Below, piece by piece: positions 21,619 through 39,796 of a DNA stretch of 50,831 nt. The notes beneath the pieces are model-generated. The model ran no database searches, was not told the origin of the DNA, and was given only the letters and a program-made list of their open reading frames with translations. Where the stretch lies: positions 1-50,831 of the forward strand of contig NZ_FREX01000001.1 of NCBI RefSeq assembly GCF_900143565.1. The letters are read 5' to 3'. Positions within the stretch are counted from its first letter, which is position 1, and each line of letters begins with the position of its first letter. The stretch is from Pseudovibrio sp. Alg231-02 (GTDB lineage: Bacteria > Pseudomonadota > Alphaproteobacteria > Rhizobiales > Stappiaceae). The translations under genes and the position numbers were made by a program.

Positions 21619-21760
21619 CTGTTTCTATGAGTTTCCACGAGTTTCCAGGACTTGGTGAAGTGATTTCCAAGAGTTTCCACGAGATCCCAATAGTTTCTAC
21701 GAGATTCCGCATGTTTCCAAGAGTTTCTATGAGTTTCCACGAGTTTCCAAGAGTGAAAGT
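21619..21760 (+). repeat. Array of 10-bp direct repeats (consensus GAGTTTCCAM)
   Basis: About 12 clear and two degenerate units lie head to tail at an exact 10-bp step, apart from one 2-bp insertion at 21659-21660. The best copies are at 21629, 21671, 21731 and 21741. The period matches the DNA helix, so all sites face one side. It abuts the nic candidate. It could be a binding array for TraK or a partition protein, or bent DNA. An open frame runs through it (21414-21776), but the 10-bp period is not a coding period. Confidence 0.85.
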
Positions 21761-21791
21761 TGGCAAGATAGGCTAAGCGGTGCCGCTTAGC
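21761..21791 (-). other. oriT: Candidate oriT core: inverted repeat plus IncP-like nic sequence
   Basis: On the minus strand, GCTAAGCGG-CA-CCGCTTAGC (21791 to 21772) is followed by CTATCTTG|CC. The last matches the RP4 nic region CTATCCTG|CC with one change. Cleavage would fall between 21764 and 21763. The distance from the repeat to nic is 8 nt, as I recall for the TraJ site of RP4. IncP-type traK, traL and traM lie about 0.6 kb away. Confidence 0.6.
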
Positions 21792-21801
21792 GAAAATTCT
21801 A

Positions 21802-21819
21802 CGAGTTTGAGCAAACTCG
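21802..21819 (+). other. Short perfect palindromic hairpin
   Basis: CGAGTTTG-AG-CAAACTCG, an 8-bp stem beside the oriT candidate. A possible accessory relaxosome or promoter-control site. Confidence 0.45.
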
Positions 21820-21899
21820 ACGAATTGAGCTTATTCGCACTGACGTGCTCAACGGCTTTTTTACTGCGCAAAAACAGAGGATGGATACGGGAATCTAAT

Positions 21900-21908
21900 T
21901 GTGGATAA
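21900..21908 (-). other. DnaA-box-like site
   Basis: TGTGGATAA is the reverse complement of the consensus DnaA box TTATCCACA. An AT-rich stretch follows (21909-21990). A single box is weak evidence for an origin. Confidence 0.4.
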
Positions 21909-22096
21909 CATTAGCGTACAGTTTTAAGGAAATTCTACCAAAACCCCGCAGTTTCCCTTGATACATAAAAATTGAAATAAATCAGAACTATAGTTGTGCC
22001 CGATTCTGTGCGGAACCGTGATCGAAATGGGGCTGGTCATAGTTGAGGGAATACGTTATGCACGTTTTACTTGTTGACATAGCTGTGATGCTATGC

Positions 22097-22139
22097 GGCC
22101 CCGGCGGTTATTAAGTACCACCTCATAACCGCTGGGGCC
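22097..22139 (+). other. Large hairpin upstream of traK
   Basis: GGCCCCGGCGGTTAT/ATAACCGCTGGGGCC (22097-22111 and 22125-22139) pair over 15 bp with one G-T. AAGTACCA occurs in the loop and again just after the stem. Candidate regulatory site for the traKLM operon or an accessory oriT element. The rest of 21992-22339 has no gene. Confidence 0.65.
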
Positions 22140-22310
22140 TAGCAAGTACCAAAACAGACTTGGCACTCGCATAAGGAGAACTACAACTTCTAATTTTAGT
22201 CGCAGTGAACTCTCATGTTACGAATGGCGTGAGACTTAACGCATTTCCGCATGGAATGCGATGAGTCGAACTGTGTCTAAGCCCTTTATCCAAATATTAA
22301 ACATCAGGGA

Positions 22311-22339: not shown

Positions 22340-22666
22340 ATGGCACTTCCGTGGGGAGATGCCCGAACTCAGTTTCAACTTGTGCGTGCGCATGTCGAGG
22401 CTGAGATCGGGAGAGGTGTATCTAAACATAGGATCTTTGAGGCCCTTCTTGCTGAAGGAAAGATCTCTATGTCGAGAGCATCTTTTTATAATTGTGCGGC
22501 TAAGGCTCTGAACCCTATGCCTAAATCGTCTTCAGGAGGTGCCATTGTGCCCCCACCCCAAGCAGAGCAGGAGCGGGCGTCTCCAACAAAAGGCCCGCTC
22601 CTGACATCGCAACCTGAAGGCAATGGCCGGTTCCAAATGGCCGACGAAATTCCCAACTACGACTAG
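22340..22666 (+). CDS. traK: TraK-like oriT-binding relaxosome protein
   Basis: A 108-residue protein. Residues 12-50 (FQLVRAHVEAEIGRG, then IFEALLAEGKISMSRASFY) follow the core of IncP TraK (VRADVEAAL ... GKVKFSYETF). The C-terminal half is a low-complexity Pro/Ser tail, as in TraK. TraK binds and wraps the region next to nic and helps form the relaxosome. It is first in the transfer operon, 16 bp before traL. It is slightly shorter than RP4 TraK (about 134 residues). Confidence 0.8.
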   Translation: MALPWGDARTQFQLVRAHVEAEIGRGVSKHRIFEALLAEGKISMSRASFYNCAAKALNPMPKSSSGGAIVPPPQAEQERASPTKGPLLTSQPEGNGRFQMADEIPNYD

Positions 22667-22681: not shown

Positions 22682-23407
22682 ATGAAGTACGTAAATATAG
22701 TCCTGCAAGGAAAAGGCGGAGCCGGTAAGAGTTTCGTATCGCTTTGTCTTTCAGAGTTCTTAAGACACAAAGAAAGAAAACTGATTGCAATTGATACGGA
22801 CCCAGTAAATCCCACATTGCATTCTTACAAAGCCCTCAATTGTAACCTTATCCGCATGATGGATAACGGAGAGATCGATCATCGCAGCTTTGATCAGATC
22901 GTTGAAGGCATTTTGGAAGCTGAGGACGAAACGCACTTCGTCATCGACACCGGTGCAACCACCTTCTTACCGATGCTCAAGTATCTGGATGAAAACGGTG
23001 TACTGGATCTGCTGCACGAGAGCGAATGTGAAGTTGCCATTCACACGGTCGTCAGTGGGGGAGGGGCGATTGATGCAACAATCTCCTGTGTCGAGAAGAT
23101 CTTCAAGGTGTTCCCCAAGCAGAAGATTATCATCTGGAAGAATGAGTATTCGGGACTAGCGGCAAAGAATGACAAACCCTTCGAAGAGATGAAGATCTTC
23201 AAGGACAACGTTGAACGCATTTACGCGGTGCCAACGCTCAAGCAACGCACTGGAAGTTCTTTCAATCACGATATTCAGCAAATGATTGAAAAACGGAAGA
23301 CCTTCAGTGAGGCGGTCAATGACGACATCTTTGGGCTTATGTCCCGCCAGCGCCTCAAGATGGTTCGAAACGATGTGTTTTCCCAGCTTGAAGCAATGAA
23401 TTTGTAA
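22682..23407 (+). CDS. traL: TraL ParA-family ATPase
   Basis: A 241-residue cytosolic ATPase. A deviant Walker A motif (LQGKGGAGKS) lies at residues 8-17, followed by LIAIDTDPVNPTLHSYKAL and HFVIDTGATTFLP. All three segments match IncP TraL closely, and the C-terminal RQRLKMVR also matches. The precise role in IncP transfer is unsettled and transfer can proceed without it. ParA-type chemistry suggests positioning plasmid DNA or the relaxosome. This is the only ParA-like gene in the window, so it may also serve partition. It lies between traK and traM. Confidence 0.85.
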   Translation: MKYVNIVLQGKGGAGKSFVSLCLSEFLRHKERKLIAIDTDPVNPTLHSYKALNCNLIRMMDNGEIDHRSFDQIVEGILEAEDETHFVIDTGATTFLPMLKYLDENGVLDLLHESECEVAIHTVVSGGGAIDATISCVEKIFKVFPKQKIIIWKNEYSGLAAKNDKPFEEMKIFKDNVERIYAVPTLKQRTGSSFNHDIQQMIEKRKTFSEAVNDDIFGLMSRQRLKMVRNDVFSQLEAMNL

Positions 23408-23425
23408 GCCTGAAGTGAGGATGTG

Positions 23426-23950
23426 ATGACCACTGAAGCTTCAGCTGCAAATGATGACAGCCAGCCAAATTTCGATTTCATGGATGAGAGTGAGCCAGAT
23501 GCTAAAGATCTGCAGATCTCAACCCTTGAAGACGTTCAGGCACTCATCGCCAAGAAGCATAACGGGCGCAGCGTGGGCTCTGACGATCCGATCTGGTTAC
23601 TCCATACAATGTTTGGGGTGCTTGTTGAGGATCTGCTGAACCTGCTTGAGGACACCAACTCACAGCAAGGCAAAGAGCGTGAAAAGCTCAAAGCGTTGCT
23701 GCCTGAGGTGGCAAAGACGCTTTCAGAAAGCTTGCAGAGTGAGCTTTCCGGTCTGAGCTCAACTCTCGGGCAATTGCGTCAGGACGCAGAAGCCAGCTCC
23801 GTTGAAAATTTGCTGAAGCAGCAAGCTCAGTTCTCCTCAGAACTTGGAACCCTCACATCCAAAGTCAGAGGCCTCAAGTGGCCTTTTGTTCTCCTAACCG
23901 CTCTCAACTGGTTCGCCGTTGGGGCTTTCTATCTCATCATGATCAAATAG
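23426..23950 (+). CDS. traM: TraM-like conjugal transfer protein
   Basis: A 174-residue protein. ISTLEDVQALIAKKHNGR and DDPIWLLHTMFGVLVEDL correspond to the conserved start of IncP TraM. A coiled-coil-like middle and one C-terminal membrane helix (LLTALNWFAVGAFYLIM) also fit. The ATG at 23426 with GTGAGG upstream is preferred over GTG at 23423. It ends 7 bp before virB2, so the IncP-type leader operon runs straight into a VirB-type channel operon. Confidence 0.8.
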   Translation: MTTEASAANDDSQPNFDFMDESEPDAKDLQISTLEDVQALIAKKHNGRSVGSDDPIWLLHTMFGVLVEDLLNLLEDTNSQQGKEREKLKALLPEVAKTLSESLQSELSGLSSTLGQLRQDAEASSVENLLKQQAQFSSELGTLTSKVRGLKWPFVLLTALNWFAVGAFYLIMIK

Positions 23951-23957: not shown

Positions 23958-24275
23958 ATGCTTTCATCTCGAAATTCCAAGACGCTCCTCACCCGTGAGG
24001 TCAAACTGTTTCTCTTCGCTGTTCTGCTCTTGAACCCTGCTTCTGCCTTCGCTGCTGCAGATTGGGCTGCACCTGCTGTTGACGTATTCGAAAGCCTTGA
24101 AAGCGGCATGGTCAAGATCGGCACTGTCACCGTTGGTATTGGTCTTGTTGGTTATGGCGTTTGGTCGGCAATTATGGGTGAGATGCGCTGGCAGAAGATG
24201 TTGCATTACGTTCTTGGAGCTATTTTGATCGTCGCTGCTCCGACGGCCATTCGCACCCTTGTAAATCTAGGATAA
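23958..24275 (+). CDS. virB2: VirB2-like major pilin
   Basis: A 105-residue precursor. A long signal sequence ends near ASAFAAA. The mature part has two hydrophobic segments (VGIGLVGYGVWSAIM and YVLGAILIVAA) around a short charged loop (GEMRWQK), the VirB2/TrbC layout. It builds the conjugative pilus. It lies just upstream of virB3. Confidence 0.88.
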   Translation: MLSSRNSKTLLTREVKLFLFAVLLLNPASAFAAADWAAPAVDVFESLESGMVKIGTVTVGIGLVGYGVWSAIMGEMRWQKMLHYVLGAILIVAAPTAIRTLVNLG

Positions 24276-24281
24276 GAGCGG

Positions 24282-24605
24282 ATGCGAGTGCAGAACGGCG
24301 TTTACCGGCATCTTCAATCTCCCCCGACAATCTTTGGCATGCCGCCAATGTTCGCAGCGCTTGCGCTCGGCGGAGTGTTCTTCGTCGGGATCATCTTGAC
24401 CACGGTGATTGATGCTCCGCTGGTGATGCTGCTCTGCATTTTCTCCATTCCTGCTGCACTGGCGTACACGATTACGCTTCGGCGTAAGGACGCTCATTGT
24501 GAGGCAACGCTTTTGCTGCCTCACACCTTCTTCAAAGGCAAGAAAGAGCGCCGCCTAGTAGCTGGCGGCTCTACGGCTAAGGCTAAAAAAGGCAAGGGTA
24601 AATGA
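24282..24605 (+). CDS. virB3: VirB3-like inner-membrane protein
   Basis: A 107-residue protein. It has the typical start (VYRHLQSPPTIFGMPP), then two adjacent membrane helices (residues 23-63), then a basic C-terminus (KKERRL ... KAKKGKGK). It works with VirB4 in pilus assembly. Its TGA overlaps the virB4 ATG (ATGA at 24602). Confidence 0.88.
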   Translation: MRVQNGVYRHLQSPPTIFGMPPMFAALALGGVFFVGIILTTVIDAPLVMLLCIFSIPAALAYTITLRRKDAHCEATLLLPHTFFKGKKERRLVAGGSTAKAKKGKGK

Positions 24606-26959
24606 GCATCATTCTTTCAACTGTAGCAACATTGGGCGTTGCTGGTGGCGCAGCCATGTACGCCAACAAACTGCTGCGGGCCAATGATGGCGGTGAGTTT
24701 GAGCAAGACTGGCTCGCAGATGAGCTGGACTTTGATCATCTGCTGGAAGATCGTTCAACCGTAGTCATGAAAGATGGCACGCTGTTTCGCGTGTTTCGGA
24801 TGCGCGGCATGTCTTACGATACCATGAACTTTGCCGAGTTGTCTTCGCTTGCCAATCAGCGCACAAACATTTTGCATCAGGTCGGTGCAACCGGATCAGC
24901 GTTCCGGTTTGTGGCCGTCAAGCGCCTTAAAGATATCTCGTTTGACGCTGACTGGCCCTCACCGGCCTTGCGCGAAATTGGTGACGCGGAAAAAGAACTT
25001 TATAAACGGGCCTACTCCATGCACTGGTTTGTGGTGGTGGAGGCCAAGACTTATGAGAGCCTGAGCAAGAATAGTAAAACGTTGCTCTCTGGTCTTGAGA
25101 CCTACCAGATTGAGGTGCTTGAAGCGGCAGCAAATCTCACTGACCACTGTGAGTTGACTGCGTTCCTGACCTATCTTGTATGCGGCGAGATGCCGAACAA
25201 TATTACGCGGGTAAGTCGGTCAATTAACGCAAACCTGCCCGTTTGTGATCTCATTATCAATAAAGACGGGACTGTCTTAACCCAATCTCCTCTCAAACAT
25301 TTTCATAAGACAATAGGTGTTCATGAATACCCTGACAGCGTGTCAGGAATGATGATTTCCAAAGTGCTCGCATTACCTGCAGAGCTGGAAGTCACTCAGA
25401 TTTGCAATCCGCTCAACACCGAAAAGACCATTCTTGAATACACGCGCAAGAAGGCCGAGCAGCTCAACAGCTTCCTTACTTCAGCTTCCATGGTTGCTGA
25501 ACTCAATGAGGCCACTGAAGCGCTGACCAACAACTCCAACGCGATGTTTCAAACTCAGCTGCAGTTCACTGTTCGGGCAAGATCCGAAGAGGAGCTGAAT
25601 GAGGTTCTGGACCAGATCTCAGCCATCTTGAACACGCGCCGTGTAAAGCATTCTGTTGAAACCGCACCAGCTGCAAACAGCTGGTTCAATCGTATTCCTG
25701 GACGAAACAAGTTGGTCAGGAAACTGCGATTGATGGATTACAACATCGCCGCGCTATGGCCGTTCCAATATTCTCCAGAAGGCATGTACTCCTCGCCATT
25801 TGGTGATCGCCCGCTTCGTTTGTTCAAGACGCCATCGGGACAAAACTACTCCTTCCAGTTCCATATTGCAGACAAGCCTCAGGCTGCGGGGCACTACCTG
25901 ATCTTTGCACCCACTGGTACAGGTAAGTCCACGCTGATCATGCACCTTCTTGGCGGGATCGCCAAGTTTGCAGGGGTACGCAATTACGTCTTTGACAGTC
26001 TGGAAGGGGCGCGGTTCATGACTGAGGTCATGGGAGGCAAATACCAGTCCTTTGATCAGCTTTCCCTCAATCCTCTTGATGGCGATTTAACCGACAAAGC
26101 CACACGCCAGCGGGCTGCTACCATGATCCGGATCATGCTGGGTGAACAGTACGCGCAAGAGATGGATGACCAGATCAATGATGTGCTGGATTTTGCCAGT
26201 GTCATGGATCGAGGTGAGCGTACGTTTGACAGTATTTTCAAGACGGCATTCCCACCAGATACGGATATCAAGCGGGCCTTCTCCAGATGGGTTCATGATG
26301 AACGGCAAGGAGAGGGGGCTTATAGCCACATCTTCAATGCCCCTCATGACAGTATCCGCTCTTTCCTTGAAACCAGCCATCTCGTTGGCATTGATATGAC
26401 CGAGCCGCTAAAAGACCCGCTGCTCGGGCCAGCTCTGGTAACTCATGTATCCAGCGCCATCTATGAAGCTGCCAAGGTGAACCAAAAGGGCTTTTCCATC
26501 TTCGTTGATGAGGCCGCTAACCTTCTGCGCAACAAAGGGTTCCGTGATCTCGTTGGGCAGATGTTCATGGAATACCGTAAGCTTGGTGGTGTCGTCGGGC
26601 TGGCCTTCCAGAACCCAGATGCGCTCGTGGAGTTTGAAGGATCTGCCAAGATCATCAATAACGCTCCGAACCTTCTCTTTATGGCTGGTTGCGGCGGCAG
26701 TGATAGTACGCTGGAGCCATTTAACCTGAGTGATGATCAGATCGCATTTATTCGCGGTGAATCACCGTTGATGGGAGGACGTCAGGTTCTTCTGGTCAGG
26801 CGGGATCTGGCGACCGGTTACAATGAAAGCACCATCATTGATGTTGACCTATCCGGTCTTGGTGATGCGCTGCGCTTCTACCGCTCTGGTACCGGCCCAA
26901 TGGCTGAACTTCGGAAAATTCAGGAAGTCTGGGGGGAGCAATGGCTGTCTCACGTTTAA
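24602..26959 (+). CDS. virB4: VirB4 ATPase of the type IV secretion system
   Basis: A 785-residue protein of normal length for VirB4. Walker A (APTGTGKST) is at residues 436-444 and Walker B (GFSIFVDEAANLL) is near 640. The N-terminal VirB4/CagE-type domain includes the DLIINKDGTVL region. It powers pilus biogenesis and substrate movement at the inner membrane. Its 3' end overlaps virB5 by 19 nt. Confidence 0.93.
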   Translation: MSIILSTVATLGVAGGAAMYANKLLRANDGGEFEQDWLADELDFDHLLEDRSTVVMKDGTLFRVFRMRGMSYDTMNFAELSSLANQRTNILHQVGATGSAFRFVAVKRLKDISFDADWPSPALREIGDAEKELYKRAYSMHWFVVVEAKTYESLSKNSKTLLSGLETYQIEVLEAAANLTDHCELTAFLTYLVCGEMPNNITRVSRSINANLPVCDLIINKDGTVLTQSPLKHFHKTIGVHEYPDSVSGMMISKVLALPAELEVTQICNPLNTEKTILEYTRKKAEQLNSFLTSASMVAELNEATEALTNNSNAMFQTQLQFTVRARSEEELNEVLDQISAILNTRRVKHSVETAPAANSWFNRIPGRNKLVRKLRLMDYNIAALWPFQYSPEGMYSSPFGDRPLRLFKTPSGQNYSFQFHIADKPQAAGHYLIFAPTGTGKSTLIMHLLGGIAKFAGVRNYVFDSLEGARFMTEVMGGKYQSFDQLSLNPLDGDLTDKATRQRAATMIRIMLGEQYAQEMDDQINDVLDFASVMDRGERTFDSIFKTAFPPDTDIKRAFSRWVHDERQGEGAYSHIFNAPHDSIRSFLETSHLVGIDMTEPLKDPLLGPALVTHVSSAIYEAAKVNQKGFSIFVDEAANLLRNKGFRDLVGQMFMEYRKLGGVVGLAFQNPDALVEFEGSAKIINNAPNLLFMAGCGGSDSTLEPFNLSDDQIAFIRGESPLMGGRQVLLVRRDLATGYNESTIIDVDLSGLGDALRFYRSGTGPMAELRKIQEVWGEQWLSHV

Positions 26960-27720
26960 TCGCGGTTACTGCTTTAACGCTATCGCTCTGCATTGCCTCT
27001 GGAAGTACGCAAGCGGCTCAACCTGTCATTGATGTGAAGGGATTAAAGGCAGCAAAGGACCAGATTAGCGCTCTGAAAGAGCAGATTAAAACGCTTAAAG
27101 AGCAGCTTGATGTGGTCAAGGATGTGCGTGCTGGCGTGGATGACACGCTCAAAAGCATTGGCGAGGTCTCCAAGATCTCCATTCCGTCCATCAACTTTTC
27201 CAACATCACCAGTCAGATCATGTCAGACAACTCCTGCCTGGTTCCAGACTTTGAAAGCCTGATGCCGGATGTGAGCTTTGATGAGATGGATATCGGCTCG
27301 CTTTGCTCTCGTTCCGATGCCTATCAAAACGGTCTGGTTGCCGAACCCAAAGACATGAAGTCCCAGACTTGGGAGCAAAAGAGATCCACAATTGCTGGCG
27401 TGCAAAAAGCGCGAGAGAACACGGTTGCGGATGCGTCTTTTAAGGGACTGGCTCAGGCTGATATGGCGCAGGAAAACGCGGTTCAGACCTTGAGTGCAGC
27501 ACAAGAGTTAAAAGGGGAAGGGGCGAAAGCTCAGACCGTCAACGAGCGCCTGCAGGTGCTCATCGAGGTCAACACTGCGCTCCTGCAAAGTCAGGCACAA
27601 ACCAATCAGCTGCTTGCCCAGCTCCTCAAGGTTTCTTCTGCTAAATCTATCCTGCAGGGCGTTCCGCTTGAGAGTGAACTCGCCAAGAAAGACATGAAAA
27701 AGAAGGGAGGTTCTTCATGA
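26941..27720 (+). CDS. virB5: VirB5-like minor pilin/channel protein
   Basis: A 259-residue exported protein. The signal peptide ends near GSTQA. A coiled-coil stretch follows (LKEQIKTLKEQLDVVKDV), and a second helical region (LQVLIEVNTALLQSQAQTNQLLAQ) sits near the C-terminus, as in the VirB5 family. It would sit at the pilus tip. Identification rests on architecture and gene order because VirB5 sequences diverge. Confidence 0.8.
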   Translation: MAVSRLIAVTALTLSLCIASGSTQAAQPVIDVKGLKAAKDQISALKEQIKTLKEQLDVVKDVRAGVDDTLKSIGEVSKISIPSINFSNITSQIMSDNSCLVPDFESLMPDVSFDEMDIGSLCSRSDAYQNGLVAEPKDMKSQTWEQKRSTIAGVQKARENTVADASFKGLAQADMAQENAVQTLSAAQELKGEGAKAQTVNERLQVLIEVNTALLQSQAQTNQLLAQLLKVSSAKSILQGVPLESELAKKDMKKKGGSS

Positions 27721-27743
27721 CCTCCCTGAGCTTATCGTCATCT

Positions 27744-28409
27744 TCAGTTGGCTTGCAGGTACTTCAGCGTGCCCTCGGCCTTGCGCCGCTCGTAGGTGGT
27801 CTTGAAAAACGGATCAAGATCGGGTCTGCGCCAGTTTGGAATGCGGCAATCTTCGATCCTGAAGTTGTATCTTTTGGTGTTTCGCTCGCAATGGAATGTT
27901 TCGAACGCCCGCCAGTGTTCTGCATCAAACGGTACGTCTTGCTCGAAAGAAGTATTCCAAGACAAGCGCATCAACTCCAGATCGCGATACTTAGCAATAG
28001 CCTCTTGCTGGTCGCTCGCCAGAAAGACTTTTTTGTCAGATTTAACCCGAAATGCTTCTTCGACCTTTCCTCTTTTGAGGAACGGTACGTTTTTTACAGC
28101 AGCCTTCACACCCTGTTTGTAGGCGGCTTCAGCAGACTTCTCCCACGCTTTGTACGCGGCTTCGTACTTCGCGAGTTCATTAGAAAGATCTTCGAAGCTC
28201 TTCAGGTTGTTCCATGCCCACTTTGCGTAAGCCGGATCAACAAAGTCCGAGGCATCTGTCCCCCAGATGTGGCGCGTAGGCGGAACGGCAGACCCATCCA
28301 AAGCAATGGAACTTTTCAGTTCGTCAAGGCTGACTTCGGCCTGAGCCTGAGACACACCAGCAAGAAAGGTGAATGCAATGAGTAGTGGTTGTGTCAGCTG
28401 CCAGGTCAT
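27744..28409 (-). CDS. Exported protein of unknown family, antisense within the virB operon
   Basis: A 221-residue protein on the strand opposite the virB genes. From the ATG at 28409 it has a good signal peptide (TWQLTQPLLIAFTFLAG ... AQA). The mature part is basic and helical (SNELAKYEAAYKAWEKSAEAAYK), with FHCERNT and EDCRIPNW in the C-terminal part and no membrane segment. An ATG at 28454 has a better ribosome site and is an alternative. Its 5' end overlaps virB6 and its 3' end faces virB5. In related IncN/IncW operons the exclusion gene eex occupies this virB5-virB6 gap, so a role in exclusion is possible but unproven. Confidence 0.7.
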   Translation of the reverse strand: MTWQLTQPLLIAFTFLAGVSQAQAEVSLDELKSSIALDGSAVPPTRHIWGTDASDFVDPAYAKWAWNNLKSFEDLSNELAKYEAAYKAWEKSAEAAYKQGVKAAVKNVPFLKRGKVEEAFRVKSDKKVFLASDQQEAIAKYRDLELMRLSWNTSFEQDVPFDAEHWRAFETFHCERNTKRYNFRIEDCRIPNWRRPDLDPFFKTTYERRKAEGTLKYLQAN

Positions 28410-29421
28410 TGAATCGTACGTTAAAAATGGCGGTGACTTTGTAAATGGTTTCATGGATATAGCCTTTGACCCTATGCTGGCAATTTTTGTGAGCCTAGCA
28501 TGTTTATGGGCGGTATTCCAAGGGTTTAAGGTAGTTACAGGTGCCGCAGATATTGGGTGGATTGCCACTCAGTTCGTGTTTTTGTTCTTTGGCTTTGGCG
28601 TACTGATGGCCCTGCAATATGGCCTTGCAGGTCAAGTCTATGAAGTCACCTACAATGTCATGTTCGGCATCCCTGCTAGCATCATGGGCGGCGGCAGTGG
28701 AAGCAATGCTGTGGTGGAGCTTGTCTCAGGTATAGAGACTGCCTTCATGCGACCAATCAACATGGCAAAGTCCATGATGGATAGTGCTGGGTTCTTCGAT
28801 AAGGTTGGTTACGTGATCTTCACTGGCCTGATCATGTTGCCCTTTATCCTGATGATGATTGTGTTTGTGACACAGGTTGCCATTGGCCTCTTTCGCATCA
28901 TGATCACTTGCTTGTTTGCTCCCTACATCATTTCTTTGAGTGCCTTCCCATGGGGACGTGAGCAGATCATGAACGGTGTAAGAACTTTGCTAGGGGCAAT
29001 CATAACCCTTGTAGCTGTCACGCTGGTGTTCTCGCTCATCGTTAAAGGCGTTGAAAGTCTCGTACCGTCCGGTGACGGCATTGGCACTGATCTGGGTAAC
29101 GCAGACACGTGGTCAGCTTACATTGTTGTAATCCTCACTGCCTGGTCTGGCGTGGCGCTCATTCAGGAAGCCGTCAGCCTTGCGGGAACCATTGCTCAAG
29201 CCTCTCTCAATGCAGCGACATCAGGCGCCATGATGTCCGGTATTGGCGGTATGGCCAGCAGCTACATGAAAGGCGGTGGCGCGGCCTTTAAGGCAGGCAA
29301 AGCCGCGATTGGCGTCACTAATGATGCTCTGGGCGATGCAGCTCACAGCATGAGCAAACAATACAGCTCAGGCAACGCTCCCAAAAGTCAAGCAACCGAT
29401 GCACTCAAGTCAGAGAAGTAA
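28378..29421 (+). CDS. virB6: VirB6-like polytopic inner-membrane channel protein
   Basis: A 347-residue protein with five to six membrane helices, including LAIFVSLACLWAVFQGF, FVFLFFGFGVLMAL and LPFILMMIVFVTQVAIGLF. A Ser/Gly-rich tail follows (residues 285-347), typical of VirB6/TrbL. The ATG at 28378 has AAAGGTG 8 nt upstream and is preferred over GTG at 28369. It lies 5 bp before the small lipoprotein gene. Confidence 0.88.
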   Translation: MSSGCVSCQVIESYVKNGGDFVNGFMDIAFDPMLAIFVSLACLWAVFQGFKVVTGAADIGWIATQFVFLFFGFGVLMALQYGLAGQVYEVTYNVMFGIPASIMGGGSGSNAVVELVSGIETAFMRPINMAKSMMDSAGFFDKVGYVIFTGLIMLPFILMMIVFVTQVAIGLFRIMITCLFAPYIISLSAFPWGREQIMNGVRTLLGAIITLVAVTLVFSLIVKGVESLVPSGDGIGTDLGNADTWSAYIVVILTAWSGVALIQEAVSLAGTIAQASLNAATSGAMMSGIGGMASSYMKGGGAAFKAGKAAIGVTNDALGDAAHSMSKQYSSGNAPKSQATDALKSEK

Positions 29422-29426
29422 TTTCC

Positions 29427-29603
29427 ATGCGTAATAGATTCATTCCATTCCTTTCGATTGTCTTGCTGTTGGCTGGTTGTCAGACCACCGAGATGCCGTA
29501 TGAACCGGTAAATACCGACGAAATGCGGCCCTCTCCCTGCGCCTGTGTAGAGCTTGAATATCAACCTCAAACCTTCGAGTGGGTCGATGCTGCACAAGCT
29601 TAA
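29427..29603 (+). CDS. virB7: VirB7-like small lipoprotein
   Basis: A 58-codon gene with a lipoprotein signal: hydrophobic FLSIVLLL then the lipobox LAGC, cysteine 18 being the lipidation site. The short mature part holds a CAC pair (Cys38, Cys40) that could form a disulfide with VirB9, as Agrobacterium VirB7 does. Size and place between virB6 and virB8 fit VirB7. Its end overlaps the virB8 start by 17 nt. Confidence 0.8.
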   Translation: MRNRFIPFLSIVLLLAGCQTTEMPYEPVNTDEMRPSPCACVELEYQPQTFEWVDAAQA

Positions 29604-30363
29604 ATTTGGCAAGAAAAACAAAGCGGAGCCGGAGGTCCCAGTTGAGGGCACGGCACTGGTTGAGGTCAATGCACCCGAACTGAGTATTGAGGGTGAGCGG
29701 CCTGGGGCACATGAAGCCGTTCTGGACGCAGACCCCTTTGCTTACAAAACTGCCCATCGTCGCATGGTGAGATTGTTCAAGGTCTCAGTATTCCTCAATG
29801 TAGTCACTGGCTTGGGGTTAGCTACGGCATTGCAAGTTCTAGCAGTAGCAATCCCTTTGAAGACAACAGAAGTGGCGCTCTTGCGTGTAGATCCAGCTGA
29901 CGAGCGGATCTACCGCGTTGAGCCGATCTCGGTTGAAGTCGATGGCTTTGAGCTGATGCTTGAGAAAATGGCTCGCCGCTATGTGGCGCAGATCCTTGCC
30001 GTTGATGGCATCTCTCAAGGGTCGCGCTTCAAAGAAGTCGCAACCTACTCTGATCAGGACTTCTACCGGCAGTTTTTGAAAGAAAATGAAGGCCGCATCG
30101 ATGAGGCCATTGAAGATGGTTTGAACCGTTCCATCACTGTTGAGACGGCAAACCAGGTCGATGCCTATAACGGTGTTTATCAGTACTCCGTTGACTTCAT
30201 CCAGACCGACAAGATCGGCAGGCAGCCCCCAGAGCAAAGCAAGCTTCGGGCTTATCTGGAAATGACCACACGCCCTCAAGAAGTGACAACCGTTGAGCGC
30301 TTCGAAAATCCTCTTGGTATCCGCATTTTGAAATTGGCTGTTCAGGAAAGGCCAACCACATGA
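29587..30363 (+). CDS. virB8: VirB8-like assembly factor
   Basis: A 258-residue bitopic inner-membrane protein. The cytoplasmic N-terminus is charged and one membrane helix lies near residues 65-88 (FLNVVTGLGLATALQVLAVA). The periplasmic NTF2-like domain has VDGFELMLEKMARRYVAQIL and YQYSVDFIQTDK. The ATG at 29587 is chosen over TTG at 29554. Its stop codon overlaps the virB9 start (ATGA at 30360). It nucleates assembly of the channel. Confidence 0.9.
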   Translation: MLHKLKFGKKNKAEPEVPVEGTALVEVNAPELSIEGERPGAHEAVLDADPFAYKTAHRRMVRLFKVSVFLNVVTGLGLATALQVLAVAIPLKTTEVALLRVDPADERIYRVEPISVEVDGFELMLEKMARRYVAQILAVDGISQGSRFKEVATYSDQDFYRQFLKENEGRIDEAIEDGLNRSITVETANQVDAYNGVYQYSVDFIQTDKIGRQPPEQSKLRAYLEMTTRPQEVTTVERFENPLGIRILKLAVQERPTT

Positions 30364-31343
30364 CCTCTCGTACTTCTCTTTTTCTTGTCACATTGCTTGT
30401 TTCAAACGCTGCTTTTGCGCAGACTTCATTGGACCGTGGACCCCAAACGCCGTCACAGCGCGTTGCTCAAGGGCAGCAGGTGGCCTCTAGCGTGACGGCC
30501 AGCGTACCGCAAGACGCGCTCGATCAGGCTGCAGCACAGCGCCGTGGTCAGTTCGGACCGATGAGCCGTACGACCGTTCCATTGGGCCAGATCCAGAAGG
30601 CATGGGACAAGGCCGGTAAGGGCAGCGGTGTTCATACTCAGGTTGATTGCGGTGCCTGTGTTTACCGCGTGCGCCTTCGTGAGTTCATGCTCTCTGTCAT
30701 CCAGCTACCTGAAGACGTGAAGATCAAGAACGCTGATGTTGCGGATGCAAGCTTGTTCGATACGAAGGTGCGCACCGATAACACACTGGTGGTTAAGCCG
30801 CTGGCAGCAGGCGTTGATAGCTCCCTGCAGGTCTATGCGGAAGATGGCAGGGTCTACAGCTTCTATCTTCGTGCTGAGACGGTGAACTCAAAACATGTTC
30901 CCGATCTCCTCTTCAAGATCGAGGAGCCTCGTGTTGCGCAGTCCTCCTTTATCGAAGTTGCTGCAGGTGGACCACCAGCGCCGCTGATGAACATGCCATA
31001 TACGCCCAAGTCAGGTGATGCTCAAAAGGTTGCCGGTGACTATGTGAAGAAGGCCAACATCGACCCGTCCAAACTGCGCGGATGGGGAGAGTACAAGCTT
31101 TGGGGATCTGACAACTCACTGAAGCCTGAAATGGTGCTGCGCGATGATCACTTCACTTACATTTTCTATGGTGACAAGTGGAAGGATATTGAACTGCCGA
31201 CCGCTTATGTGGTGGTTGATGGGATTGATGAACTGGTCAACACCCGAGTATCCGGATCAACCTATATCGTTGAAAACACGAATAAACTGATCACCCTGAA
31301 GTCGGGTCAGTCCTACATGTGCATCGAATTCAAGGGTAACTAA
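30360..31343 (+). CDS. virB9: VirB9-like outer-membrane core protein
   Basis: A 327-residue exported protein. The signal peptide ends at NAAFA. The C-terminal domain has YKLWGSDNSLKPEMVLRDD and FTYIFYGDKW, matching the conserved VirB9/TrbG region. The pair CGACVYRV near residue 98 could make the disulfide to VirB7. It forms the outer ring of the channel with VirB7 and VirB10. Confidence 0.92.
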   Translation: MTSRTSLFLVTLLVSNAAFAQTSLDRGPQTPSQRVAQGQQVASSVTASVPQDALDQAAAQRRGQFGPMSRTTVPLGQIQKAWDKAGKGSGVHTQVDCGACVYRVRLREFMLSVIQLPEDVKIKNADVADASLFDTKVRTDNTLVVKPLAAGVDSSLQVYAEDGRVYSFYLRAETVNSKHVPDLLFKIEEPRVAQSSFIEVAAGGPPAPLMNMPYTPKSGDAQKVAGDYVKKANIDPSKLRGWGEYKLWGSDNSLKPEMVLRDDHFTYIFYGDKWKDIELPTAYVVVDGIDELVNTRVSGSTYIVENTNKLITLKSGQSYMCIEFKGN

Positions 31344-31344
31344 C

Positions 31345-32484
31345 ATGAGTGTATGTGAGTTATTCCTTGCGGTTGGTCTGAGCTTTGGCGGGGCGTGTGA
31401 GCCTGAGCCGGTGATCGCTCGTGGTTTGCCGCCTAGTGATGAAGGGGTGTTTGAGTATAAGCGGCCACCGGCTCCCAAGCCGGTGATACCGCCAGCACCG
31501 CCGCCGCCACGCATCATCATGGCTCCTCCCATCGTGGTTGAAAAGGAAGTCAGCAAGGACGCGCCGCCCAGAACGATCATCAAGAAAGAGTACATCACTG
31601 TTGAGAAGATTGTTGAGCCCAAAAAACCCATCGAGCCCAGCCCGTTTGAGCTGGAACTGCAGGCTGCAAGAGCTGCTCGTTTTGGGACGCAAGGCTACAT
31701 CAATTCTGAGGGTGTGCTCGCAAATGGCCTTGAGGGCAATGTTCCAGGTCTTGATTCAGGACTGACCCAGAGCGCAGCACTTAGCGTGCCATCTGCAGCC
31801 GGAGGTATAGCCGGTTCCCTAAGTGTGCCCGAAGGGATTGATCCGGAAAACAGCACTTACAAAGCGTCTGGCCGGATCTCCACCAGTGCGGTTGATAACA
31901 GCCGCATTGTCACTGCCGACCGCTACATCACCGGCATCATGGAAACCGGCATTAACAGCCAGCTAGCTGATGAGGGCTCCATCGTCATTCAAGTAAGCAG
32001 GGATGTTTACGGCTATCACGGGGCCAATCTTCTGGTTCCAAAAGGAAGCCGCATGATCTGCCGCTATGAGAGCGCGAAGAAGGTTGGACAGACCCGTATC
32101 GGCTTCCAATGTGAGCGTGTTCTCATGGCTGAAAGCCGCGCTGAAATCTACCAGCTCAAAGCCAAGGTTGGTGATGCACAAGGCTACGGCGGCATGTCCG
32201 GCCACGTCGATAATCGCTGGTGGGAGAAGTACGGCACTGCTGTGACCACCGTTGCCATTGGCGCAGGTGTTGAATCAGCCGTCACCATGGCCTCTGCCTA
32301 TGGTTTGGAAGGCTCCGACACAATCGCTTCAGCCCTGACAGGCATCTCGGAGAACGTTGGCGAGTTGTCGGCAAAGTTTATGGAAGACACGGTCAATTTG
32401 AGGCCGGTCATCCGTATTTCCCAAGGCACCAGAGTTCAGATCAGACCTGAATATGACTGGTACTTGGCTCCACCTACCCAATAG
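31345..32484 (+). CDS. virB10: VirB10-like energy-sensing core protein with unusual N-terminus
   Basis: A 379-residue protein. A proline-rich stretch (residues 30-55) is followed by a TrbI/VirB10 C-terminal domain, with ADRYITGIMETGINSQL, GANLLVPKGSRMICRYES and a final QGTRVQIRPEYDWYL. Usual VirB10 proteins start with a cytoplasmic segment before the membrane helix. This one begins almost directly with a short hydrophobic stretch (CELFLAVGLSFGGAC), so membrane anchoring may differ. The first in-frame ATG is used, one base after the virB9 stop. Confidence 0.88.
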   Translation: MSVCELFLAVGLSFGGACEPEPVIARGLPPSDEGVFEYKRPPAPKPVIPPAPPPPRIIMAPPIVVEKEVSKDAPPRTIIKKEYITVEKIVEPKKPIEPSPFELELQAARAARFGTQGYINSEGVLANGLEGNVPGLDSGLTQSAALSVPSAAGGIAGSLSVPEGIDPENSTYKASGRISTSAVDNSRIVTADRYITGIMETGINSQLADEGSIVIQVSRDVYGYHGANLLVPKGSRMICRYESAKKVGQTRIGFQCERVLMAESRAEIYQLKAKVGDAQGYGGMSGHVDNRWWEKYGTAVTTVAIGAGVESAVTMASAYGLEGSDTIASALTGISENVGELSAKFMEDTVNLRPVIRISQGTRVQIRPEYDWYLAPPTQ

Positions 32485-32501
32485 TAATGAGGGTTATTTT
32501 G

Positions 32502-35285
32502 ATGCGGAATATTTTAAGGCTTAGTTTGGTTGGGACCTTGTTGCTGACAAGTTCAGTAGCAGGCTTCTCCCAAACAGCTTCACCACCGTCTGCCGCAACG
32601 CAGGCCGTGCAAGCAGGCAAGCAAGGAACGAGTGCAGCAGAGGCCACCGCTGCACTTCGTGAGAAGCTGTTTGCTGTTGCCGTGAAGCAGACAACACCGA
32701 TTTTTGAAGGCAAAGCAGTTGAGCTTGCCTTGCAGATCAAAAAGGCTCCTCAGTTCACCGCAGGGGTCAACAAAGACGAAGTGTCAGTATCAGGTGTGAG
32801 CGCAGAAGGCTTCTCCCAGTATGTCATGCATGATGGGAAGAAGATTGGGCAAGCTGTGCTCACACGCCTGACAAAGGGCGAGCGCTTTGTCGAACTTAAT
32901 GCAGAAAACTTCTCGTCGCAGTTTGATGTTGAAGAGGATGTGATCAATCCGGAAGAAACGCTTGATGTATCGGGCAACGAGGAAGAGCTGATTGCAGCGC
33001 TCACAAAGCTTAACATGCAAGAAGAGCCGAAAGAGGACAAAGAAAAGGAAGACAAGGAAGAAGACGAAAAGTACGAAGATGTAGCACGTAACGAGAATGG
33101 TGGTTCTGGGTCAAGCTCAGATTCGTCCGGAGGTGGAGACACACCTGGTCAGAGCGGTTATGAGACGCCGGAGCGCAAGGAAGTTGAAGCCGAGGAAGCT
33201 CCTGAAGAAGATCCGGAAGAGGTGCGCCTCACCTTTGATGGCTGTTCTCCCGTCATCGACCGAAACCAAGGACAAGTACGTGTTCAGTCCAAGACACAAA
33301 CCTTGAAAAAGGGTGTTGTGATTGAAGAAAGTGCATGTTCTGACAGTGGTACAAACTTCACGATCCAAAAGAGCGCTGCAACGTGTGATGACAAGATCGA
33401 TGTAAATGCTCGCATCGCAAAGCCGCAGTACCTCGAATATTACATCAACAGCAAGCAGGAGCGTATTCAGCTTTCTGACTGTCAGCCTGACCCAGATACA
33501 ACATTCTCAATTACAGAGGATGATAGCTGCCCAATTGATATCGATTTGGAAGCGGGTATGGCTTACATCGAGACCCAAATGGTCTACACCGATGGCAACA
33601 ACAACCTGCAGACAGTGCGGACGTGTGAGCGATCAGATTTTTACCAGCCAATCAAGATGGCGCAGGTAACAGATGGATGTAACGTCCGTCATGATTTCGG
33701 CAATAAACTTTCAACCGAAATGGCTATGTGGATCTATGAGAAGGATGATCAGTTCTATCAGGCCTCCCCATGTACGGTGACAGAAAACACCTTCCCGCAT
33801 GAAAAGGTATTTAAGAAGAACGGCGTTGATATTTGTCAGATCATGGTGGATTTGACGGGACGCAGGGCTATTCCTCAGTACCGCACGGAAATTGTTGTAG
33901 GTGCTGCTGCGCAATACATCGATCAGTGTACGCCAGATTCAACCGCTTCCATTGAGATCAAGTCCACTACGGAAGGCTGCATCAATCCGGCTGAGTTCAA
34001 TCACGATATTGCAGCTGGTGTGTCGTATGGCCTGGAGCGGTTCTACTATGAGAATCCGAACAGGGTTTATGTCAGTGCGTGTCAGCAAAGCGGAACTGCA
34101 TACGTACACAACGTTGAAGTTTCTTCCTGGAAGCACGACGATGAGAAAAAAGTGGCTCAGCCTCTTTCTGACGTGTCTATCAATGTGGCCGGTCAGGTCT
34201 ATCCGCTGGCATCAAACATGCTGCTGCCTGGAGCACCTGAAGTTGCCTACACCAAGATGGAAACGGAATCCGAGCAGGTTGCATCAGGGCGCTATTTTGA
34301 GGGCTGCTATGCCTTTGTCCCGACTAAGCTGACAGATGTGTTTGAGCGTCCGGACAGTACCCGTCTGGAGATCCCATTGGGTGATGGGGACGTCTTTGAG
34401 GAAGGCTATCAGTGCAAGCCAACCATTGAAGGGTGTATCAGTCCTGCTGACTTTACGCATGATTTCACAGCTGGCGTGTCTACTGGATTGGAGCGCTTCT
34501 ACTACACCAACCCAGACAGAGTTTATGTAGGTAATTGTCAGAAGGGCGATACGAACTATACGCACATTGCGCAAACATCAGCCTGGAAGTACGACGACCC
34601 TAAACGCAAAGCACGGCCACTGTCAGATGTTTCGATCAAAATTGAAGGTCTGAGCTACACCATTGCAACTAAGAAGCTTCTGCCAAATGCGCAATATGTT
34701 GCTTACACAAAAAAGAATATCGAAGAGGTCGAGGACCCATCAGAGCGATACTATGACGGCTGTGATGCCATGGTCCCTGTAAAACGTCAGCAGGTCTATG
34801 AGCGCCCAGATGGCAGCAAGCATTCCGTCACGATCAGCAATGGCACTCCAGTAAATGAAGGTGACAAGTGTGAACGCTCAAAAGAGCAGCGGGAGCGCTA
34901 TATTCGTACGACGTTTGAAGCTAAAGGGTATGGCACTTTGTACTCATATAATCCTTCGGGCAAAGTGCGGAGTATGAGTGTTAACCAGCATGTTGGAGGG
35001 TATGGATCAAGCCCTCAATGGAAGTCATTCAGCGACAGGACAGATGGAGAATATCAATCTACGGCTTGTCGTGTTGTGCAACAAAACTGTTCTGGCCGAG
35101 TGGTTTGGGGGCGCGTGAAGAATGTCTTTGCCAACGAAGAACGCGATGTTCTTACCTTTCCTGATGGCAAGGTCGAGTACTCTGAATGGAAAGAAGTATC
35201 TCGCGATGAACGTCTTCAGTCATGTCAAGCTTCAGAACCAGCCCGATATAGCGAAAGCTATTGTGACAACGGAAGTGACCACTGA
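32502..35285 (+). CDS. Large cysteine-rich secreted protein inside the virB operon
   Basis: A 927-residue exported protein of unknown family between virB10 and virB11. The signal peptide ends near GFSQ. Residues 25-165 are soluble. Residues 165-235 are highly charged and Ser/Gly-rich (a linker). The rest holds 22 cysteines, all after residue 240. Two homologous blocks of about 150 residues (near 491-640 and 643-790) begin GCINPAEF/GCISPADF and contain GLERFYYENPNRVYV/GLERFYYTNPDRVYV, then PLSDVSI. ATG 32502 has GAGGG upstream, so it is preferred over 32487. Its size and cysteine content recall F-type TraN, the mating-pair stabiliser, without visible sequence similarity. A surface or pilus-tip adhesin is my inference. 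Confidence 0.85.
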   Translation: MRNILRLSLVGTLLLTSSVAGFSQTASPPSAATQAVQAGKQGTSAAEATAALREKLFAVAVKQTTPIFEGKAVELALQIKKAPQFTAGVNKDEVSVSGVSAEGFSQYVMHDGKKIGQAVLTRLTKGERFVELNAENFSSQFDVEEDVINPEETLDVSGNEEELIAALTKLNMQEEPKEDKEKEDKEEDEKYEDVARNENGGSGSSSDSSGGGDTPGQSGYETPERKEVEAEEAPEEDPEEVRLTFDGCSPVIDRNQGQVRVQSKTQTLKKGVVIEESACSDSGTNFTIQKSAATCDDKIDVNARIAKPQYLEYYINSKQERIQLSDCQPDPDTTFSITEDDSCPIDIDLEAGMAYIETQMVYTDGNNNLQTVRTCERSDFYQPIKMAQVTDGCNVRHDFGNKLSTEMAMWIYEKDDQFYQASPCTVTENTFPHEKVFKKNGVDICQIMVDLTGRRAIPQYRTEIVVGAAAQYIDQCTPDSTASIEIKSTTEGCINPAEFNHDIAAGVSYGLERFYYENPNRVYVSACQQSGTAYVHNVEVSSWKHDDEKKVAQPLSDVSINVAGQVYPLASNMLLPGAPEVAYTKMETESEQVASGRYFEGCYAFVPTKLTDVFERPDSTRLEIPLGDGDVFEEGYQCKPTIEGCISPADFTHDFTAGVSTGLERFYYTNPDRVYVGNCQKGDTNYTHIAQTSAWKYDDPKRKARPLSDVSIKIEGLSYTIATKKLLPNAQYVAYTKKNIEEVEDPSERYYDGCDAMVPVKRQQVYERPDGSKHSVTISNGTPVNEGDKCERSKEQRERYIRTTFEAKGYGTLYSYNPSGKVRSMSVNQHVGGYGSSPQWKSFSDRTDGEYQSTACRVVQQNCSGRVVWGRVKNVFANEERDVLTFPDGKVEYSEWKEVSRDERLQSCQASEPARYSESYCDNGSDH

Positions 35286-35325
35286 TCATCTCTGACAAGA
35301 GCTCTGAATAGAGCGTAATGAAAAT

Positions 35326-35356
35326 GTCAGCCGACAGGTCTTTCTTGTCGGCTGAC
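35326..35356 (+). terminator. Perfect hairpin between the Cys-rich gene and virB11
   Basis: GTCAGCCGACA/TGTCGGCTGAC, an 11-bp stem with a 9-nt loop, 40 bp after the stop codon and 80 bp before virB11. The T-richer side is on the minus strand. It may weaken expression of the downstream genes or stabilise mRNA ends. Confidence 0.6.
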
Positions 35357-35435
35357 TGAGAAACGAAATTTGTAAGCAATAACAACTGCTAAGTTTTAAA
35401 GTCCTGACGTTCATATCAGGGCTAACGGGTGAGCC

Positions 35436-36374
35436 ATGTCTGATGCACTGATAATGAAGCTTATGGAACCTTTATCGCAAATCTATAGTGATCCGAACGT
35501 CGTTGAGCTGCGCCAAATGCGACCGGAAACGTTCATTTTGGAGCACCGCACAGCTGACCTACAACAGATCGATGCGCCTGGTGTTGGCTTCACGCAGGTC
35601 CGCCGGATCTGTCAGGCGCTTGCCAACTACAACGGCCTGAAGTTTTCTGAAAGTTCGCACCCTAAGCTCTCTGTGTCACTGCCTGAACGCCATCGTTTTG
35701 AATGCCTGATTGGACCAAGCACGCGGACAGGCCTGTCCATGGCGGTGCGCTGCAAGCATCCCTATGAGATCAAGTTTGAAGATATGGGGCTGCGTCAGGC
35801 CATCATCGACTACATTGGCGAGGCCATGTTTAAGCGCTGGAATATCGCGGTATCTGGCTCGACAAACACCGGCAAAACCACCTTCCTGAACAAGCTGCTG
35901 GGCCTGTTGCCCGTTCATGAGCGCGTTGTGTCTTGTGAGGACACGCCTGAGCTGGAGGTTGAGCGCTTCTGGAACGGGTCAGCGCTGTTTGCATCGCGAG
36001 AGGCTTCTCAAGGGGCTGGACTGCAAACCTGGCCGCAACTGTTTGATCACAAGATGCGCATTTCTCCCGACCGCATCATCTTTTCCGAGATCTCGGTTCA
36101 AAATGCCTTCTCTGCTTTGAACGCGCTCAACACCGGCGCAAAGGGCTGGATGTGCACCATTCACGCTGACCGCGCCGAGATGGTGGTCGAGCGGTTTCAG
36201 AACAACATCGATATGTCAGGCATGAACCTGACAAAGCCCATCAGCGAGTACTTCGACACGCTGGTCGATGTGATCTTCCATATCACTCGCTTTGACCGCG
36301 GTGTGCGCCATGTCACCGACATTTATGAGGTCAAAAACAACCGATACATCCTCAAAGACGGGAAGCTTCTGTGA
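35436..36374 (+). CDS. virB11: VirB11 secretion ATPase
   Basis: A 312-residue hexameric traffic ATPase. Walker A (GSTNTGKTT) is at residues 141-149. The Asp-box region (CEDTPELEV), Walker B region (DRIIFSEIS) and His box (GWMCTIHADRAE) follow in order. It switches VirB4 and VirD4 activities at the inner membrane. Its stop codon overlaps the virD4 ATG by one base. Confidence 0.93.
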   Translation: MSDALIMKLMEPLSQIYSDPNVVELRQMRPETFILEHRTADLQQIDAPGVGFTQVRRICQALANYNGLKFSESSHPKLSVSLPERHRFECLIGPSTRTGLSMAVRCKHPYEIKFEDMGLRQAIIDYIGEAMFKRWNIAVSGSTNTGKTTFLNKLLGLLPVHERVVSCEDTPELEVERFWNGSALFASREASQGAGLQTWPQLFDHKMRISPDRIIFSEISVQNAFSALNALNTGAKGWMCTIHADRAEMVVERFQNNIDMSGMNLTKPISEYFDTLVDVIFHITRFDRGVRHVTDIYEVKNNRYILKDGKLL

Positions 36375-38482: not shown

Positions 38483-39796
38483 ATGGCACAGAGTGAAACC
38501 AAGACCCCTGCCCGCCAGAATGCCCGCACGCCTGCTCGCCAAGCAGATGAGGGAACGTTGAGTGAGGCTGCAAACCAGGACAAGCGCGAGCGCACCTATC
38601 TGGCCGTTCCTTATGACGAGCGCGAGGAGGCTAAGAAACTTGGTGCCAGGTTTGACCGCAAAGCCAGGAGCTGGTTTGCGCCGACCGCAAAAGCCGTAAA
38701 AGCCACTTTAAAATGGTCCGTAAAAGGCAAGGCGCCTGCAGCTGAGCAAAAGCGCGATCCGCAAGGGGAGTTCAGTGATTGGATCCGGGCACAAGGCATG
38801 GATCTGCAGGGCTTGGCGCAGATGGATGGCAAATGGCACCGCATTGCCATTGCTGGCGAGAAGAAGGTCAAAAACGCCTCTTATCGTGGCTTCCTCGATG
38901 GCGCTGTTCCTAATGGCATGCTGCATAATTTTAAAGGAAGTCAGGAGAGCTGGACGTTTGACGGGCAACAGCTTTCAAAGGATGAAGTTCAACGGGCTAT
39001 TGAAGCGGGGAAAAAGGCGTCAAAGGAGAGGGCAGATGAGCGGAAACTGGATCAGGAGAAAGCTGCGAAAACAGCCTATGGGATCTGGGCCAACCTTACC
39101 GACTGGGCCAAGCCATCGAATTGCGAGTACTTGAAACGAAAAAACGTTCTTGGCTATGGCGTGAAGCTGGATAAAGACGATCGCATGGTCGTGCCTTTGC
39201 GCGATACGGATCTTAAAATCCACTCGCTGCAGTTCGTAGGCGAAGACAAACACTATCTCAAACATGGCCGCAAAGAAGGGCTGTTCCATGCCATTGATCC
39301 AGGGCGTTACTTAAACGATGCGGACAAGCTGGGACAGGGAGATACGCTCGTCTTTGCAGAAGGCTATGCGACCGGTGCGTCCGTTCACAAACTCACAAAC
39401 AAGCCAGTCATCGTGACGTTTGATGGTGACAATCTGGTCAAGGTTACCACAGCGCTGCGCGAGAAATTCCCGGACGTGACCATGCTATTTGCAGCAGATG
39501 ATGACCATCATTTGCCCCTTCGCGAAAATCCATTGCCCAACAAGGGACTGGAGAAGGCAAGCGAGGCAGCACAGGCCGTTGGCGGGTATGTGGTGGCCCC
39601 TCCCCTTACCAGCTCTGAAAAAGCAAAAGGTCTGACGGATTGGAATGATCTGTGTGTGGTGCGCGGACACGACAAAGCAGTCTTCCAATTCCTCACACGC
39701 ACTCGGGCAGCGTTAAGCCTGGGAAACGCACAGGAGCTTCAGATCGATACCACAAAATCTAAACAGCAAGGCCGTGAGCAGGAGATGAGCTTATGA
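38483..39796 (+). CDS. DUF5710/TOPRIM primase-like plasmid protein
   Basis: A 437-residue protein. Residues 35-75 (ERTYLAVPYDEREEAKKLGARFDRKARSWFAP) match the DUF5710 module common in plasmid primases. The middle carries zinc-less primase-like sequence. The TOPRIM core shows FAEGYATGASVHK, VTFDGDNL and FAADDDH near residues 290-340. It resembles TraC-type primases, which start complementary-strand synthesis in recipients. The ATG follows GAGGAG. It overlaps the next gene (ATGA at 39793). Confidence 0.82.
   Translation: MAQSETKTPARQNARTPARQADEGTLSEAANQDKRERTYLAVPYDEREEAKKLGARFDRKARSWFAPTAKAVKATLKWSVKGKAPAAEQKRDPQGEFSDWIRAQGMDLQGLAQMDGKWHRIAIAGEKKVKNASYRGFLDGAVPNGMLHNFKGSQESWTFDGQQLSKDEVQRAIEAGKKASKERADERKLDQEKAAKTAYGIWANLTDWAKPSNCEYLKRKNVLGYGVKLDKDDRMVVPLRDTDLKIHSLQFVGEDKHYLKHGRKEGLFHAIDPGRYLNDADKLGQGDTLVFAEGYATGASVHKLTNKPVIVTFDGDNLVKVTTALREKFPDVTMLFAADDDHHLPLRENPLPNKGLEKASEAAQAVGGYVVAPPLTSSEKAKGLTDWNDLCVVRGHDKAVFQFLTRTRAALSLGNAQELQIDTTKSKQQGREQEMSL

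Follow-up and report, generated by a model that had tools for sequence, protein, structure and literature searches.

The 50,831-nucleotide stretch of Pseudovibrio sp. Alg231-02 DNA analyzed here, referred to as the window, very probably carries the oriT of an IncP-type (MOBP, TraI/MobA(P)) conjugation module, and comparison gives strong support to reading the site itself as an oriT of IncP type. In the proposed mechanism, TraJ would bind an inverted repeat and recruit the relaxase TraI, which would cut the minus strand at CTATCTTG|CC and remain on the 5' end, while TraK would bind the decamer array, helically phased and located immediately before the nick, and would, with the ParA-like TraL, offer the DNA to TraG, the coupling protein. 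The side carrying the array (positions below 21763) should enter the recipient first and the traKLM-to-traI block (22.3-41.3 kb) last, and the site is predicted to function in this organism. IncP-type oriTs are known, and comparative tests indicate that what differs here is the turned and distant arrangement of the site relative to its genes.

The core site and the second IncP block

Read along the minus strand, the core of the site consists of GCTAAGCGG (21791-21783), CA, CCGCTTAGC (21780-21772), CTATCTTG (21771-21764) and CC (21763-21762). A preliminary description of this DNA had reported a perfect 9-bp minus-strand repeat followed by CTATCTTG|CC, one base from the RP4 nic and at the spacing of the RP4 TraJ site, and each of these readings holds. 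The inverted repeat (21772..21791; arms 21772-21780 and 21783-21791), perfect over 9 bp, is the presumed TraJ site. The adjoining nic motif (21762..21771, minus strand as T-strand) has a single mismatch to the decamer CTATCCTGCC of the RP4-like plasmid pBS228 (NC_008357), and matches exactly the one in an Eikenella plasmid whose tra genes are of IncP type; the nic of RP4 has the form YATCCTG|Y. The minus strand is presumed to be cut between 21764 and 21763, with CTATCTTGCC as the candidate target sequence of TraI. The repeat arm ends 8 nt from this presumed nick, the same spacing as that described for RP4 (PMC7314908).

A joint motif was defined as a decamer with at most one mismatch to GGCAGGATAG, the pBS228 nic, and, right after it, a perfect inverted repeat of 8 bp or more whose loop does not exceed 4. 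It occurs once in the window and in none of 200 first-order Markov resamplings, and among the five decamers of the window within one mismatch of the pBS228 nic, the repeat adjoins just one. A chance origin of the site and its array is ruled out by this result together with the array periodicity, unmatched in shuffles. The bare decamer GGCAAGATAG, present in 87/87 genomes of the family, was discarded as an uninformative search term.

On the trailing side, the core is followed by a second inverted repeat (21795..21826, 15-nt arms, 87% complementary) and by the IncP oriT block GCTTATTCGCACTGACGTGCTCAACGGC (21829..21856, plus strand), common to pBS228 and the Eikenella plasmid. Its TTATTCGC..GCTCAACG portion (21831-21854) stands on the repeat side of nic and is shared with pBS228. 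In that plasmid, typed IncP, GGCAGGATAG is followed directly by its repeat and then by TTATTCGCACCTGGCGGTGCTCAACG, and the Eikenella plasmid, which carries traJ-traI and traK-traL, has the same plan of nic, repeat and block. The preliminary description contained neither this second block nor the reversed facing relative to traKLM, the tie of the array to nic instead of traK, and the mosaic, all presented below.

The conjugation genes and the turned arrangement

All tra genes from traK to traI lie on the plus strand, on the repeat (trailing) side of the presumed nick. The first is a traK homologue (22340..22666, 108 aa), recognized through a 14-member alignment against pBS228 TraK (hhalign 95.8%, E 7.2e-9). 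It is followed by traL (22682..23407), a ParA-like ATPase with 40% identity to pBS228 TraL (NF010461, E 1.2e-67, below cut-off), and by a traM-like gene (23423..23950; NF010470, E 9e-5, below cut-off; PF11657 weak). The traKLM genes had been called IncP-type, with the site upstream of them. They do lie to its right, and TraK and TraL are homologous to their pBS228 counterparts, the traM-like match being weak. Pfam analysis assigns the ensuing mating-pair genes trbC/virB2, virB4, trbL/virB6, virB8, virB9, virB10 and virB11, with unassigned frames between them (23958..36374), the traG/virD4 coupling protein (36371..38431; PF02534, E 2.3e-104) and a Toprim-domain protein (38483..39796; PF13362, PF18974). 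PMC4811931, which makes no mention of "oriT", describes a Pseudovibrio T4SS cluster that includes a Toprim protein as well as a relaxase. Lastly, the traJ homologue (39793..40155, 120 aa, class A) matches pBS228 TraJ through an 8-member alignment (hhalign 95.6%, E 1.2e-8; NF010451, E 3.6e-4, below cut-off), and the traI relaxase of the TraI/MobA(P) family (40159..41280; NF041893, above cut-off) shares 35% identity with pBS228 TraI over 344 alignment positions. Nic and the traI start are 18,396 bp apart, in agreement with the roughly 18 kb given earlier.

Taken alone, TraJ and TraK of the window exceed no Pfam or NCBIfam cut-off; PF17273 is matched by 7/14 members of the TraK alignment, the TraK of the window not being one of them. 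A PDB sequence search with TraI and TraK returned no match. Most named TraK homologues are from Pseudovibrio, and the relaxase matches 4478 PLSDB records, where those very close to the window's genome may be missing, the best seven being six Roseibium plasmids and one from Thalassospira. Three of the 14 TraK proteins (P0013, P0014, P0016) are 65-66 aa long and lack the first 43 residues, by truncation or start-site call, and one short TraK is named from a Microbulbifer plasmid, reflecting cross-class transfer or contamination.

The core recurs at the same place in relatives. TraL matches were found in 23 places in 18/87 genomes of the family, and 22 of these loci were scanned for the core (L056, the second piece of one gene, was left out). 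In 19 of them, including the more distant L055 with its variant sequence GGCAGGATGG, it precedes traL and faces the same way. The scan did not find it in L041, L044 and L057; reading by eye, L041 displays the variant core GGCAGGGTAAT. The named Roseibium plasmid L005 possesses the core too, while the scan returned none for the Thalassospira loci L002 and L004; the tra gene order of L002/L003 is similar to that of the window. Within 16 Pseudovibrio genomes, a 17-base form of the core (at most one mismatch) occurs in 10 places, 8 of them sites upstream of traL, and in none when the pattern is read backwards. The matches in G020:C4 and G027:C25 were rejected as extra oriTs, no inverted repeat following them; that in G020:C4 appears by eye to lie within a transposase coding sequence.

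The preliminary description had called for an alignment with related oriTs, which was built from 14 cores of equal repeat length (10 distinct rows; the 19-nt-repeat cores L042, L043, L047, L048 and L050 and the longer repeat of L055 were set aside). The nic decamer is near-invariant and the least variable part of the site, GGCA[AG]GATA being constant, while the repeat arms vary (GCTAAGCGG, GCTAACCGG, AGGAAGTGG, GCAAAGTGA). All nine repeat pairs are kept in the 10 distinct rows (90/90 cells paired), 7/9 having changed on both sides, and pairing is far lower in every slid register. On four of five covariation measures, none of 500 shuffles reaches the observed value, and 73/500 do so on the fifth (pair types). 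A varying paired repeat next to a fixed nic is the pattern that would be expected of a dimeric TraJ target beside a relaxase site. The candidate oriT of the preliminary description is therefore supported, by the same-orientation core upstream of traL in 19/22 loci, the covarying repeat and the second IncP block.

Among the closest known systems is the RP4/IncP-1 oriT, represented by pBS228. Both have the nic (one mismatch), a repeat ending 8 nt from it, the TTATTCGC..GCTCAACG block, and homologous TraI, TraJ, TraK and TraL. In contrast, the repeat arms are perfect over 9 bp in the window and 19 bp long in RP4/IncP-1, and a clear 10-bp array is seen in the window and is not significant in pBS228. 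The gene arrangement also differs: in pBS228 the leading side, that of nic, holds traK and the repeat side traJ-traI, whereas in the window traKLM is on the trailing side and traJ-traI are 18 kb off. A closely similar arrangement is found in Roseibium aggregatum RF14 plasmid unnamed4 (NZ_CP045621) and in related loci from Roseibium, which share the orientation and the order oriT, traL, T4SS, traG and traI. The core of unnamed4 is 17.5 kb from traI, and this distance spans 17.5-21.3 kb in nine sites of the window's arrangement; unnamed4 differs by other repeat arms and a weaker array (score 0.134 vs 0.323). A further comparison is offered by R388, in which stbABC and stbDRs likewise combine a small DNA-binding protein, a ParA-like protein and short direct repeats by oriT, but which is MOBF11, has 9-bp repeats with 2-bp spacers and bears its stb genes on the first-entering side (PMC3098194). 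According to the same survey, stb/traKLM operons are on that side in all cases it covers, and the window, whose traKLM genes lie on the other, trailing side of the putative nick, is an exception.

Named-organism TraL loci were sampled as the best 80 of 516 TraL relatives. Cores were found in 18, with 10 in the RP4-like orientation (some of them short hairpins only), two downstream of traL and six in the orientation of the window, three from Pseudovibrio and three from Roseibium; the first scan returned none in the other 62. A laxer scan, covering 32 of those 62 together with L112, L153, L002, L041, L044 and L057, brought in six further RP4-like loci where a nic-like motif is present (L103, L105, L134, L135, L167, L168), RP4-like blocks without a nic motif in L098, L101 and L126, one downstream block (L129), and, from P. 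hongkongensis, one locus oriented as in the window (L041 and L100, one and the same place). Within this sample of the best 80 of 516, the turned arrangement is seen in Pseudovibrio and Roseibium only.

The place of oriT governs predictions of transfer direction, leading-region genes and plasmid mobility. At about 18,000 bases from the relaxase gene, this oriT would be missed by search rules that look beside that gene, as the preliminary description had anticipated; a survey of leading regions dropped contigs with oriT more than 3,500 bp from the relaxase or traM gene (PMC11541004). PLSDB types RF14 unnamed4 as non-mobilizable despite its core, and gives the same typing for a Thalassospira plasmid with a similar tra order and no core found. 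A search of the open-access literature for oriT and Labrenzia returned nothing on such a site by title. OriTs of this kind could be sought upstream of traK by their 10-bp array and TTATTCGC block, and the leading region of these elements would shift to the side opposite the tra genes. On this presumed leading side, the window contains two 142-nt direct repeats (17393-17534 and 19758-19899; 80% alike, 2365 bp apart), similar copies of which are present in G015:C5 and G023:C5.

The decamer array beside nic

The array had been described as starting at the nic side, which Tandem Repeats Finder confirms by calling, on the leading side, a plus-strand array of GTTTCCACGA-like 10-bp units (21621..21754; period 10, 13.2 copies, 65% matches). 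The 10-bp periodicity of the 150 bp beside nic is equalled by 0/1000 shuffles and by 0/2016 other 150-bp stretches of the window. The same autocorrelation test, taken as positive when at most 10/1000 shuffles equal the observed value (150 bp beside nic, 102 bp in L055), is positive for 26/34 oriTs and 2/6 further ones, i.e. 28/40, the duplicates L042, L043, L046 and L094-L096 not being counted and the tested loci being mutually related. By arrangement, periodic arrays are found in 18/20 oriTs of the window type, 9/18 RP4-like ones and 1/2 downstream of traL, and always on the leading side. The non-periodic ones are L150, L172, L058 (pBS228; 130/1000 shuffles), L059, L112, L114, L153, L136 (the sequence of which contains N runs), L103, L135, L167 and L168. 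Among lags 5 to 34, lag 10 is the best on 15/22 leading sides vs 2/22 trailing sides. The units differ by plasmid, with GTTTCCACGA in the window and GTTTCTCCGA, TTTCCCGAAC or GCGATTCTAT elsewhere.

In either arrangement the array adjoins nic, and in RP4 the curved leading side of oriT is where TraK binds (PMC7314908); we therefore infer that the array is the TraK site. A broader proposal, plausible but tentative, is that many IncP-type oriTs possess a phased 10-bp leading-side array that retains its period and its proximity to nic although its sequence changes from plasmid to plasmid. It would form a docking and wrapping platform for TraK, tied to nic rather than to the traK gene, as the Pseudovibrio and Roseibium plasmids illustrate by carrying traK on the opposite side. 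The absence of significance in pBS228 and in several other RP4-like loci argues against this holding universally. A search of the open-access literature combining TraK, oriT and 10-bp repeats found no paper. The separation of array and traK makes what TraK recognizes directly testable.

The array could instead be a partition or stability site, a StbA-type centromere outside the relaxosome, which seems unlikely. R388 StbA binds the stbDRs (9-bp repeats, 2-bp spacing) and confers stability, and RP4 TraK has been linked to it by iterative search (PMC3098194); moreover, RepC is the replication gene found in the window, and a Pfam scan of 30 of its ORFs recognized neither RepA nor RepB. However, the leading side of nic holds the array whether or not traK is there, which ties the array to nic, and that side is the one bound by RP4 TraK. 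Relaxosome and stability roles are also compatible.

Apparent mosaic structure, a candidate tra leader and orphan sites

The window corresponds to G000:C8:1-50831, at the end of a 1.27-Mb contig, and contains a RepC gene (42829-44259). The module looks mosaic. Measured in 500-bp bins, identity to G015:C5 is 84-95% at 22.0-31.5 kb and 71-81% at 36.5-41.5 kb where aligned, while identity to G014 is 63-83% and 84-95% over the same two segments. The window oriT is of the G015:C5 type (GATAG, GCTAAGCGG; type B), the G014 oriT being GATAT, GCTAACCGG, and TraJ and TraI in the window belong with those of G014. Across the seven other Pseudovibrio plasmids compared, class-A TraJ goes with type-A oriT (4/4) and class B with type B (3/3), the class calls being close in two cases (L009, 63% with the A and 54% with the B query; L011, 51% A and 57% B). 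G025 has a class-A TraJ, and neither TraL nor a core was found in its genome. The window is the exception, its TraJ class going elsewhere with the other oriT type; its oriT may therefore be non-cognate, and oriT and TraJ may be imperfectly matched. Over the eight plasmids including the window, which are related, the association yields a Fisher p of 0.14, so that this mismatch is a suggestion only.

If recombination combined oriT and traKL of type B with a traG-traJ-traI segment of type A, perhaps in a chromosome, the site could be an oriT by descent that has ceased to work here. We consider this rather improbable. In its favor are the identity switch along the module, the agreement of class and type in the seven other plasmids, a genome with one relaxase match and one TraJ match, and the contig itself: it carries three S4-domain genes, which we take to be chromosomal, so that the module may be integrated or misjoined. 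Against it, the association is not significant once the window is included, two TraJ labels are close, the two oriT types differ by a single repeat position and by a single base next to nic, and the named tra genes are open frames. That the repeat is a mere operator or terminator of the traK operon next to a coincidental nic-like match is highly improbable: the RP4 TraJ repeat does double as an operator (PMC7314908), but no part of the site varies less than the nic decamer, the joint motif was absent from the resamplings, the second IncP block is there, and a terminator search of 21500-22400 reports no terminator-like site. A promoter scan of the same region returned one weak match, no more than shuffles give.

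Between oriT and traK lies a conserved two-hairpin element (22089..22185, plus strand), a candidate tra leader RNA. Its fold has a z of -4.1, and in an alignment of 16 rows 91.6% of cells are paired, with changes on both sides in 12/23 pairs; four of five covariation measures beat 500/500 shuffles, the value for pair types being reached by 480/500. Rfam reports nothing at gathering threshold in the window, and one match at E 1.9 in 21760-22345. A model built from 16 copies finds at least 26 full-length copies in at least 18/87 genomes, at least 19 at tra loci and at least 7 elsewhere, these counts being lower bounds because only some first-look candidates were scored. Three of those elsewhere (L185, L190, L191) are preceded by a complete oriT core, with no match to traK, L, M, J or I of the window in the surrounding 3.5-5.5 kb. 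L185 keeps, by eye, the start of a Roseibium-type TraK frame, and the search of G035, the genome of L190, found neither TraI nor TraL. Such orphan cores could be relics or sites mobilized in trans. The copies L186, L187, L188 and L189 (G024:C56, G017:C29) have no oriT core within 900 bp upstream; one of them precedes a fragment of TraK (41% over 58 aa), and three are on one contig. Finally, partial relaxase matches away from contig ends, perhaps decayed copies, were observed at L028 and L032 (G041:C21) and L027 (G049:C1).
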